From the NCBI GenBank assembly GCA_016785955.1, contig JAEUWH010000029.1, positions 1 through 53,959 on the forward strand: a stretch of 53,959 nt of DNA. Reading direction: 5' to 3'. A model generated the notes under the pieces. That model searched no databases. It saw only the letters and a list, made by a program, of their open reading frames with translations, and was not told the DNA's origin. The translations under genes were made by a program, and so were the position numbers. Within the stretch, counting starts at the first letter, position 1. Each line of letters starts with the position of its first letter. Of this stretch, positions 16,931 to 48,684 are shown one piece after another. This DNA comes from Pseudobdellovibrionaceae bacterium. GTDB lineage: Bacteria > Bdellovibrionota > Bdellovibrionia > Bdellovibrionales > Bdellovibrionaceae.

Positions 16931-17317
16931 AAATTTCCCTCAATCCCCATATCGTCATTAACTTTATAGTAACCTGACTTTACGTGAAATTTCTCGATAT
17001 TTTTAATTTAGTTGTGGGAGTATCTCAAAATAAGAAATATTTTGTATTTTTTTGTCGAAGTTTTATCTCGAAAACAACAATAAAAATCGTGAATCAAATT
17101 GATACGGATTGAAAGAAATTGGCGTTCCTATTCCAATAACAATAACAATGAATCATGTGTGATTTGTTTTTGACGACAACGACAAAATTCAAGTCAGAGT
17201 CGTCACTGAAAACGCCCTTCATTAACTAGGGTAAGCCGATTGATCGGGAAAAACTGATTCGCAGGATTGCGGACAATTGTGCCCGATAAGTTTCGGCTTC
17301 GCCAAGGGAACGTGTTT
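16931..17317. other. Intergenic stretch containing an MNT gene relic
   Basis: 387 bases between two minus-strand genes. The first 170 bases hold the promoter side of the FeeM-PilZ gene and AT-rich sequence; 17161-17219 is a relic of a nucleotidyltransferase gene. The rest shows no supported feature. Confidence 0.6.
17161..17219 (-). pseudogene. Relic of an MNT-type nucleotidyltransferase gene
   Basis: These 59 bases align with 28081-28139, inside the intact MNT gene, with only a few mismatches. On the minus strand they encode GVFSDDSDLNFVVVVKNKS, the nucleotidyltransferase active-site strand, with the second catalytic Asp changed to Asn. No start, stop or remaining domain is present. Confidence 0.75.
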
Positions 17318-22590: not shown

Positions 22591-22617
22591 TGTCATTACC
22601 AACCTATCTAGGTCGAT
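22591..22617. repeat. Dispersed 27-bp intergenic repeat, copy A
   Basis: Identical over 27 bases to 43976-44002. Its last 20 bases are ACCAACCTATCTAGGTCGAT, with a palindromic core ACCTA/TAGGT. It lies between the stops of two convergent genes. Confidence 0.8.
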
Positions 22618-27225: not shown

Positions 27226-27488
27226 CCGATTCTCAGAATAAGTTAAACTCGATTCGATTTTTTTCTTTCCAAAAGACTAATACTATCAATAGTAAACACT
27301 CACCTCGGCTCTTAAATGACGGTACAAATGGGCAAACTTAACCCGATAGCTTGGCAGAGTATTCTGTTAGCGTGCCGGAAAAATGTATCGTCGGAAAAAT
27401 TTAATTTTCTTCTTAACATTCTAAATTTTAGAGTGGCGGCATTGCTATGCCTTAATAAAGCCTGGGAGCTAAGACCAGAAATCTATTT

Positions 27489-27514
27489 TTTCCTTACAGA
27501 CGTCTGTAAGGAAA
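27489..27514. repeat. Bracket palindrome, copy 1
   Basis: A 26-bp perfect palindrome with core CCTTACAGACGTCTGTAAGG, flanked by TTT/AAA. The same core recurs at 28280-28309 on the other side of the MNT-HEPN genes. Confidence 0.85.
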
Positions 27515-27519
27515 TGGCT

Positions 27520-27930
27520 TTATGATGAGGTGTTAGCCTGGGCCCAATCCGCAACCTTTCGGGCTGTAGTTAATGCAGTTTCAATTTCTTCTGTTGTGAG
27601 AGGAGTCTGTCCCTCTTCATAACGACGAACGGTTGCAAAAGGATTCAGCTCAGTCAGCCCAAAGCCCTCTGGGGGCATTTTATCGTCAGGCAAAAGAGCA
27701 ACTAAAATTCCCAAGTCATGAACGATAGGGAAAGCAATTTGAAGATGAACGAGCACGGCTTTGATATATTTCTCGACGGATTGTTGAACTAAAAAAACAA
27801 TGTTCTCAGGTCGGCCTAATTTCGCTTTTGATAGGGCCACGGAGGAGTCCAAATCCCCCGCCGCAATTTTCAAAAGTTCTTTGGAGTATTCCTTTTTGTA
27901 GAGCCGCTTTTTTAGGTTCGGAGGAGTCAT
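27520..27930 (-). CDS. HEPN-domain protein of an MNT-HEPN module
   Basis: 136 residues, all helical. NIVFLVQQSVEKYIKAVLVHLQ followed by PIVHDLGILVALLP is the core of the HEPN domain (PF05168), and ATVRRYEEG is the usual late RY segment. The RX4-6H motif of toxic RNase HEPN proteins is not obvious, so RNase activity is uncertain. ATG overlaps the TGA of the MNT gene (ATGA), so the two proteins are made together and probably form a complex as toxin-antitoxin partners. Confidence 0.85.
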   Translation of the reverse strand: MTPPNLKKRLYKKEYSKELLKIAAGDLDSSVALSKAKLGRPENIVFLVQQSVEKYIKAVLVHLQIAFPIVHDLGILVALLPDDKMPPEGFGLTELNPFATVRRYEEGQTPLTTEEIETALTTARKVADWAQANTSS

Positions 27931-28268
27931 CGAAGTTTTTTCCCGTGATGAAAAGCATCAAAGCAGACTCCACCAAAATCTTTTCGCTCGTCAAAAGAGG
28001 CTTTCGTTTTGAAAATCCAATCAATCGCAATATCAGTGAAGCGAGGAGCGTAAACTTCTTTTTGAAGCTGTTTGATGTCGGATTCGTTTTTGACGACAAC
28101 GACAAAATCCAAGTCAGAGTCGTCAGTGAAAACACCTTCCACCGCAGAACCAAAAAGATAAGCTTCCAAAATTAAATTTTGTGAAGGAATGGCGTTCAAA
28201 ACTTCCACGGCTTTTTTTTGAGCCCATTGGTTCATCGCTGGATTTGGAATCATTTTTAGCAAGCCCAT
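27927..28268 (-). CDS. MNT-type minimal nucleotidyltransferase
   Basis: About 113 residues from ATG 28268 (AAGGTGG upstream). Active-site pattern YLFGSAVEG, then DDSDLDFVVVV and the third Asp in TDIAIDWIF: the GS...DxD...D signature of polymerase-beta-like nucleotidyltransferases. In MntA-HepT systems this protein AMPylates the HEPN partner and neutralises it. The order (MNT first, overlapping HEPN) fits. Its ribosome site lies directly beside the bracket palindrome, so the promoter must be in or beyond it. Confidence 0.87.
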   Translation of the reverse strand: MGLLKMIPNPAMNQWAQKKAVEVLNAIPSQNLILEAYLFGSAVEGVFTDDSDLDFVVVVKNESDIKQLQKEVYAPRFTDIAIDWIFKTKASFDERKDFGGVCFDAFHHGKKLR

Positions 28269-28279
28269 TTTCACCACCT

Positions 28280-28309
28280 TTTTTCCTTACAGACGTCTGT
28301 AAGGAAAAA
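28280..28309. repeat. Bracket palindrome, copy 2
   Basis: 30-bp perfect palindrome, same 20-bp core as at 27489, with five T and five A on the flanks. It begins one base after the 3' CCA of tRNA-Arg. There is no T-run on the 3' side in either direction, so it is not a standard terminator. Confidence 0.85.
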
Positions 28310-28310
28310 C

Positions 28311-28387
28311 TGGTGACTCCACCAAGAATCGAACTTGGAACCCCGTCCTTAGAAGGGACGTGCTCTATCCAATTGAGCTATGGAGCC
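28311..28387 (-). tRNA. tRNA-Arg (anticodon UCU)
   Basis: Starts GGCTCCATAGCTC; acceptor pairs GGCTCCA with TGGAGTC, the anticodon loop CTTCTAA gives UCU, the T-arm contains TTCGATT, and CCA is encoded. All arms fold. It is next to the bracket palindrome at its 3' end, the usual place for integration of mobile elements. Confidence 0.93.
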
Positions 28388-28756
28388 ACACTTGCCGAAA
28401 TTATAATGGAATTTAATCTTTATAGCAAGAACGAGGGTTTTTACGATACGCCACAAGTGAGGGCGTGTCATCCATTTTTTTTTGAAAAAATTAATCTCCA
28501 ACTCAGGCTCGGTTGAGAATTGCCTGTCGTCTTGGTCGTATTTCAACATCATCATTTGGTGGGGCATGGGGCCCGCCGCCTGTTGAACATCCTTCCAATG
28601 AAGTTTTCGGTGAGCATTGGTGATGATGAGTGTCCGCCGAAAATCATGCGACGAGTGACCAAGCTTTTTCAGGATTTTATTCACCTTCTTGTTCAAGGTG
28701 TTCGGGTGCATGGGGACAATTTGTTGAATTAGAACCCATGCCTCTTTTGCGTCCAT
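28388..28756 (-). pseudogene. Tyrosine recombinase (integrase) remnant
   Basis: The frame begins inside a truncated tRNA and reads HPNTLNKKVNKILKKLGHSS, then HDFRRTLII, and KDVQQAAG followed by MMMLKYDQ. This matches the C-terminal catalytic region of phage-type integrases (H-x-x-R box and tyrosine). The usual GH before the tyrosine is GP and the N-terminal domains are missing. The frame runs on into the tRNA-Arg gene. It is the relic of an element that used this tRNA site. Confidence 0.65.
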
Positions 28757-28759
28757 ATT

Positions 28760-28800
28760 CCAGTAAAGGCAATTGCTCTATCCAACTGAGCTACGGTCGC
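28760..28800 (-). pseudogene. Truncated tRNA-Arg-like gene (5' half)
   Basis: GCGACCGTAGCTCAGTTGGA and the following GAGC form a normal acceptor 5' strand and D-arm. After ATTGCCTTTACTGG the sequence changes into the integrase remnant, so the anticodon arm is imperfect and the T-arm and 3' end are absent. Confidence 0.7.
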
Positions 28801-43975: not shown

Positions 43976-44002
43976 TGTCATTACCAACCTATCTAGGTCG
44001 AT
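43976..44002. repeat. Dispersed 27-bp intergenic repeat, copy B
   Basis: Identical to 22591-22617 over 27 bases. It begins directly after (3' of) the minus-strand stop at 44003 and lies between convergent genes, like copy A. Confidence 0.8.
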
Positions 44003-48166: not shown

Positions 48167-48230
48167 AACGCTGGACTCAAAATCTGCTGCTCTCACGGGC
48201 GTGGGGGCTCAAGTCCCTCTACCCGCACCA
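48167..48230 (+). pseudogene. Degenerate 3' half of tRNA-Leu(CAA)
   Basis: ACGCTGGACTCAAAATC, a variable arm and GTGGGGGCTCAAGTCCCTC then ACCCGCACCA match the 3' half of a tRNA-Leu. The 5' half with GCGGGT is missing, the anticodon stem does not pair, and T54 of the T-loop is C. It marks the edge of a foreign segment. Confidence 0.7.
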
Positions 48231-48239
48231 AATTTTTAA

Positions 48240-48371
48240 AAGACCTATTCAAACTATGAAGACCAACCCGAAAAGGTTATCAACATCTATAAAAATCTTG
48301 ATGATGAGGAAGATGACTTTTTCAAAAAATCATCTTTAAGAAACGGGGCTAAGAAATTGGCCCCATTTTGA
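48240..48371 (+). pseudogene. C-terminal gene fragment
   Basis: An open frame without start, reading YSNYEDQPEKVINIYKNLD then DEEDDFFKKSSLRNGAKKLA and a stop at 48371. Charged, protein-like composition. It begins 10 bases after the tRNA-Leu remnant. Family unknown; a leftover of the inserted element. Confidence 0.4.
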
Positions 48372-48372
48372 C

Positions 48373-48684
48373 TTAACTGACTTTCTTAGGTTTCACAGAA
48401 ATATCAAGCCCCAAAACATCTAACATTTTTGTAAGGCTCTCAAGCGTTGGGTTCCCATCTTCTGATAGCGTCTTGTAAAGTGTTTCACGGTTTAGGTTTG
48501 TTTCTTCTGCGAAGTTTTTAAATCCACGAGCCTCTGCCACATGGCGAAGGGCTACTAATATGGCTTTAGAAAACCCTTGGTTATCTTCAATCGTAGTTTG
48601 AACATACTCCGCTTGGGCTTTGTCATCACCTTTTAATGATTCAACAACCCACTCATCATAAGAACGACTTGCTTTTTCATTCAT
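48373..48684 (-). CDS. Xre/HigA-type addiction module antidote
   Basis: 103 residues from ATG 48684 (AGGAG upstream). SYDEWVVESLKGDDKAQAEY at the start and the HTH ARGFKNFAEETNLNRETLYK followed by SEDGNPTLESLTKMLDVLG are typical of the antidote family paired with Gp49-like toxins. Binds DNA and neutralises its toxin. Here the toxin gene is truncated, so it is an orphan antitoxin. Confidence 0.88.
   Translation of the reverse strand: MNEKASRSYDEWVVESLKGDDKAQAEYVQTTIEDNQGFSKAILVALRHVAEARGFKNFAEETNLNRETLYKTLSEDGNPTLESLTKMLDVLGLDISVKPKKVS

Follow-up and report, generated by a model that had tools for sequence, protein, structure and literature searches.

The window, the whole stretch of 53,959 nucleotides that was analysed (genome G000; related genomes carry numbers of the same kind), contains on its reverse strand a pair of overlapping MNT and HEPN genes that is enclosed by two palindromes and lies beside a complete tRNA-Arg(UCU) gene. 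An initial annotation of this DNA had described these elements and had missed an integrase remnant and a second, split tRNA beside the module. The features of the locus, in order of coordinates, are:

27489-27514, no strand assigned: downstream palindrome (hairpin), 26 bp and perfect, with a decayed counterpart in G064
27520-27930, minus strand: HEPN gene, Class II (Pfam PF05168, E=2.6e-15; alignment)
27927-28268, minus strand: MNT gene, a minimal nucleotidyltransferase with a GSX10DXD motif (Pfam PF01909, NTP_transf_2, E=4.7e-9)
28280-28309, no strand assigned: upstream palindrome (hairpin) between the CCA of the replacement tRNA and MNT, 30 bp and perfect, kept in G003, G049 and G064
28311-28387, minus strand: element-borne replacement tRNA-Arg(UCU) (ARAGORN; Rfam, 66 bits; whole-genome pattern searches)
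28400-28428, minus strand: promoter-like TTGCTA-17-TATAAT upstream of the replacement tRNA (10/12 matches; chance alone would give about two in the region)
28508-28765, minus strand: C-terminal remnant of a tyrosine recombinase (integrase), 72% identical to the final portion of G049's 383-aa integrase
28766-28800, minus strand: 5′ half of the host tRNA-Arg(UCU), an attL remnant broken after ...GCCTT in the anticodon loop (comparison with G005 and G001)

The MNT and HEPN reading frames overlap by 4 bases, and MNT starts at an ATG at 28268, preceded by a Shine-Dalgarno-like AGGTGG at 28274-28279. Pfam matches to PF01909 and PF05168 confirmed the MNT-HEPN identity first proposed for the pair. With PF05168 beside PF01909, GSX10DXD present and RX4HXY absent, the pair is by its domain and motif content a Class II HEPN/MNT module, a class defined in 2020, when its biochemistry was unstudied (PMC7641770). 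It shares with the described modules the same neighbouring genes, GSX10DXD in MNT, the lack of RX4HXY and the invariant HEPN tyrosine, and differs from them in standing behind a tRNA and a conserved hairpin and in being flanked on both sides in two genera. The RX4-6H motif was absent from all four HEPN sequences compared. The type VII MntA-HepT systems (Class I) have the same two-gene order and the same pairing of a nucleotidyltransferase with a HEPN protein, but their HEPN proteins and the present one fall into different Pfam families; because the RX4HXY RNase motif is missing and the NCBIfam MntA score of 27.7 is under the cut-off of 60, the pair is, by these markers, not a member of that family. 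Substitution rates indicate strong purifying selection on both genes, with dN/dS of 0.05-0.13 for MNT and HEPN (about 0.1 for MNT against G003 and G049; G064's MNT is left out of these figures) and dS of 0.6 for MNT and 1.5 for HEPN between G000 and G003. Searches of solved structures gave no match for HEPN and a weak one for MNT, and no viral homologues of HEPN were found. A 24-residue fragment at 17154-17225 (minus strand), 67% identical to the MNT protein, may be the relic of a second MNT.

The two perfect palindromes were reported to enclose the pair with an identical core, and both copies of the 20-bp core CCTTACAGACGTCTGTAAGG (27492-27511 and 28285-28304) are indeed exact. The reported ends also hold: the downstream palindrome lies 5 bases from the HEPN stop (27520-27522) and the upstream one is 1 base off the CCA of the tRNA-Arg(TCT). 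From the MNT ATG the upstream palindrome is 11 bases away. The direct repeat common to both is 29 bp long (27486-27514 = 28279-28307). They are the window's only perfect palindromes with arms of at least 9, and the longest arm in 40 Markov-simulated windows was 10. A search of the whole G000 genome returned the two exact core copies and no third; allowing up to 3 mismatches added one weak site, and a reversed-pattern control likewise gave one. No core with up to 2 mismatches was present in five other genus members. The window's only other direct repeat of at least 24 bp is an exact 27-bp repeat at 22591-22617 and 43976-44002. No Rfam match besides the tRNA was obtained at the locus, and the folding z of the upstream hairpin was about -5 to -6.

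The palindromes are not canonical terminators, because no T-run follows either stem, as had been noted; its absence holds on either strand, and a terminator scan reported neither palindrome. Nor is the palindrome a common terminator or a dispersed repeat. A scan of 84,980 species genomes produced 90 loci, of which two had full hairpins, both at tRNA/MNT-HEPN loci in Bdellovibrionaceae MAGs, UBA5009 (= G064) and UBA2316 (= G003), and a terminator or repeat of wide occurrence was rejected with the full hairpin confined to such loci.

The half tRNA at 28766-28800 matches the intact tRNA-Arg(TCT) of G005 exactly over 30 bp, and is similar to that of G001. In both of these genomes a yihY/BrkB-family neighbour gene is followed by the intact tRNA-Arg(TCT), and because the same neighbour adjoins it there, the broken half is the host's original gene. 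When viewed by eye, the intact tRNA-Arg(UCU) genes of G001:C81 (L046), G005:C7 (L047), G065:C47 (L059) and G002:C56 (L053) were seen to be flanked by recombinase-like genes. From its surroundings, the tRNA-Arg(UCU) of relatives seems to be an integration hot spot.

The integrase remnant of G000 has been joined to the tRNA half by a deletion, and the GHTTH of its relatives reads GPMPH. An integrase search recovered fuller copies in G049 and G003, and both genomes have the same order: the host tRNA-Arg(UCU) 5′ half (...CCTTCTAAG), the integrase, a complete and divergent tRNA-Arg(UCU), the hairpin, MNT and HEPN. The 383-aa protein of G049 matches PF00589 and PHROG integrases; no homologues were found in viruses or plasmids. 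In G000, G003 and G049 the host tRNA 5′ half stands alone at the attL side, shortened in G000. The single contig of G049 shows both ends of the element, with the attL core at L040:7850 and, about 9.1 kb further on, the attR core at L040:16947, where the host tRNA 3′ half lies; CCTTCTAAG begins the 3′ half at attR, and a complete tRNA is present at neither junction. G000, G003, G048 and G064 are draft genomes; attL only was seen in G003 and, truncated, in G000, and attR was not found among the 124 contigs of the G000 draft. Among the ORFs of the 9.1-kb element the integrase is the sole clear PHROGs match, a weak replication-initiator match was returned by Pfam, and no structural phage genes were recognised with either collection.

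These comparisons show integrase-driven insertion into the host's only tRNA-Arg(UCU), with the element supplying its own copy behind the integrase. The tyrosine integrase placed the element inside the anticodon loop of that gene by way of the 9-bp core CCTTCTAAG; since the insertion cut the loop with only this core, neither junction rebuilds the tRNA. A complete tRNA-Arg(UCU) came with the element, directly behind the integrase gene. In G000 a later deletion took what remained of the host tRNA together with most of the integrase, so that the element's tRNA is the only copy found there. We consider it likely that a tRNA-dependent integrative element left this locus behind as its domesticated remnant, an account that includes the linkage of the pair and the RNA roles of the hairpins proposed below.

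One complete tRNA-Arg(UCU) per genome was detected in G000, G003 and G049, in each case the element's, with a pattern that does not depend on the D-arm (G049 alone is not a draft). The replacement tRNAs of G000 and G003 are identical at 79/79 positions, though MNT and HEPN have diverged at synonymous sites. AGA and AGG together account for 6.3 of every 1000 codons in the long ORFs of the window, and the replacement tRNA is therefore very likely needed. Because the element cut the only host tRNA for these Arg codons and supplied its own copy, the cell now probably depends on the element's leftovers, and loss of the remnant would be lethal through the reading of AGA and AGG. MNT and HEPN would be carried along by linkage, since the tRNA to which they are linked would be essential. 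No promoter-like site lies between the replacement tRNA and MNT in the window, and the pair is probably transcribed from the tRNA promoter.

Elements with related integrases were found at other tRNA genes. In G274 a tRNA-Thr(CGU) is split and a complete tRNA-Thr(CGU) lies directly 3′ of the related integrase, with no other complete copy found in that genome; in G082 a tRNA-Arg(CCU) is split and a complete tRNA-Arg(CCU) again lies directly 3′ of the integrase. In G005 and G137 an intact tRNA-Leu(GAG) adjoins the integrase and there is no second tRNA. In G048, as in G000, a deletion has joined the tRNA half to the integrase and left the replacement tRNA, so that the two genomes represent, on their sequences, two independent-looking cases of domestication. 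The complete element tRNAs are thus tRNA-Arg(TCT) in G000, G003, G049 and G048, tRNA-Thr(CGT) in G274 and tRNA-Arg(CCT) in G082.

The integration strategy matches the tRNA-dependent lysogeny described in phages by Guerrero-Bustamante & Hatfull 2024 (PMC10865867): a tyrosine integrase sits at the junction, and a short common core lies within a tRNA gene that is rebuilt at neither attL nor attR. The present elements differ in their host phylum, Bdellovibrionota, in the isotypes Arg(UCU), Arg(CCU) and Thr(CGU), in carrying the replacement tRNA directly behind int, in that no phage structural gene was recognised in the G049 element, and in that G000 and G048 keep the tRNA with a truncated integrase. 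Replacement of a tRNA by phage-related sequences has also been described in Sinorhizobium meliloti (PMC11476347). Canonical tRNA-targeting genomic islands (Islander, PMC4383910) likewise have a tyrosine integrase beside their tRNA target, but they restore the split gene from island sequence, whereas here the tRNA is destroyed and a whole second gene replaces it. No report of tRNA-dependent integration in Bdellovibrionota was found in the literature searched; what appears to be new is the occurrence in this phylum and at these isotypes, the constant order of int and tRNA, the remnants kept after domestication, and a Class II HEPN/MNT pair linked to a hairpin. A mobile element would here have made itself indispensable by destroying an essential tRNA and then replacing it. 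One integrase family uses three tRNA genes, Arg-UCU, Arg-CCU and Thr-CGU, and an end state is visible in which the integrase is dead and the borrowed tRNA is kept.

The upstream hairpin is kept in four genomes of three genera (G000, G003, G049 and G064), four sequences on which its conservation and role are judged. Its stem is TTTTCTTACAG / CTGTAAGAAAA, in which a T-A pair has become C-G in G000 by compensated change, and its loops are ACGT, ACGC, ACCGT and ACAGC, that is 4 or 5 nt. At all four loci it lies a few bases 3′ of a tRNA-Arg(UCU) CCA and before an AGGTGG Shine-Dalgarno-like site, and the tRNA bodies ahead of it differ. Downstream of the HEPN stop, G064 retains a decayed second palindrome (21/26 bases, 0/500 shuffles); a second palindrome is absent after the HEPN stop in G003 and G049. 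The hairpin-MNT-HEPN module of G064 stands behind the 3′ half of the host's own split tRNA-Arg(UCU), the halves being on C83 (5′) and C59, so the module need not accompany the element's tRNA. A D-armless tRNA-like candidate in G064 was rejected as a decoy, being this 3′ half with its 5′ half on C83. At the end of contig G064:C83 (L058), some 110 bases past the split host tRNA, a second tRNA-Arg(UCU) starts, which is probably another replacement tRNA. Short contigs of G084 with mixed integrase and MNT pieces look like assembly chimeras and were excluded.

The G048 element has the replacement tRNA and neither hairpin nor MNT-HEPN, and related MNT-HEPN pairs in G047, G048 (C173), G067, G139 and G129 have neither tRNA nor hairpin. 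Because hairpin and pair are missing together in G048 and the related pairs are without the hairpin, the two come together behind the tRNA, and the comparison supports the view that hairpin, MNT and HEPN behave as a unit behind tRNA-Arg(UCU).

The initial annotation had read the module as an inserted cassette, and part of this stands: the module lies in a site-specific, now decayed element, and hairpin and pair behave as a unit. The reading of the palindromes as recombination ends gains no support, since the integrase and the att core CCTTCTAAG explain the insertion. It is nonetheless conceivable, if doubtful, that hairpin-MNT-HEPN-hairpin is a small mobile module of its own, with palindromic ends recognised in trans as folded single-stranded or as double-stranded DNA, which inserts behind tRNA-Arg(UCU). 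The genes of G000 have a copy on either side, and in G064 a second copy persists in decayed form; the module occurs behind two different tRNA-Arg(UCU) genes and is missing behind the G048 replacement tRNA; and the loop varies in length, as hairpin-recognising enzymes might tolerate. Against it, no transposase or recombinase lies between the palindromes, where MNT and HEPN are the sole occupants, no target duplication was seen, and G003 and G049 have no second copy. Nor was any other gene pair enclosed by this palindrome found in G000 or among the 84,980 species genomes.

Operator sites, the other function first suggested, have lost ground because the distance between half-sites varies, being 0 or 1 bp. 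The palindrome would on that account bind a dimeric regulator of the pair, either MNT itself or a TetR-type repressor, which we regard as improbable. A strong conserved dyad TTACAGAC..GTCTGTAA does lie directly before MNT, and the Shewanella MNT SO_3165 binds its own promoter, which contains two palindromes (PMC4621449). However, G003 and G064 each have an imperfect half-site, the site is downstream of the likely promoter with little promoter room between it and MNT, the related pairs of G047, G048, G067 and G139 lack the palindrome, and a downstream copy would be unexpected of an operator.

The variable loop length favours a folded strand over a two-half-site operator, and we propose, with less assurance than for the insertion itself, that the palindromes act as RNA hairpins. 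The upstream hairpin would part the tRNA from the mRNA, either by keeping trimming out of the MNT leader or by adjusting how strongly MNT is translated, and the downstream hairpin would serve as a cap at the 3′ end of the transcript. Such a cap cannot be essential, as G003 and G049 do without the downstream palindrome. We lean somewhat towards an RNA role where tRNA and mRNA meet, ahead of an origin of the palindromes as module boundaries, the main rival; an operator is less likely.

It would be a further step, and a very improbable one, to see in tRNA-Arg(UCU), hairpin, MNT and HEPN one operon-like functional unit whose pair senses or targets the processing or 3′ end of the essential tRNA, so that the element takes over the tRNA and then guards it. 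The hairpin does lie shortly 3′ of the tRNA-Arg(UCU) CCA in 4/4 loci with differing tRNA bodies, and type VII HEPN toxins have been implicated in tRNA digestion (PMC11586414), but the Class II HEPN is without the RNase motif and related MNT-HEPN pairs occur without any tRNA. Integrases of this family also have replacement tRNAs where the pair is missing, so integration by itself suffices to explain the tRNA. Since a conserved hairpin ties this Class II HEPN/MNT pair to the tRNA ahead of it, both how the pair is regulated and whether it is connected with the tRNA can be tested directly.

Elsewhere in the window, positions 48167-48231 (plus strand) resemble the 3′ half of a tRNA-Leu(CAA) that ARAGORN does not recognise and have the appearance of an attachment site used by another integrative element. 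Positions 48246-48343 (plus strand) match, with 88% identity across 98 bp, the end of a 105-aa ORF from the tRNA-splitting element of G049; by this similarity the segment is a remnant of a related element beside the tRNA-Leu fragment. A small ORF at 48373-48684 (minus strand), of antitoxin-type appearance and named by eye, adjoins the element remnant.
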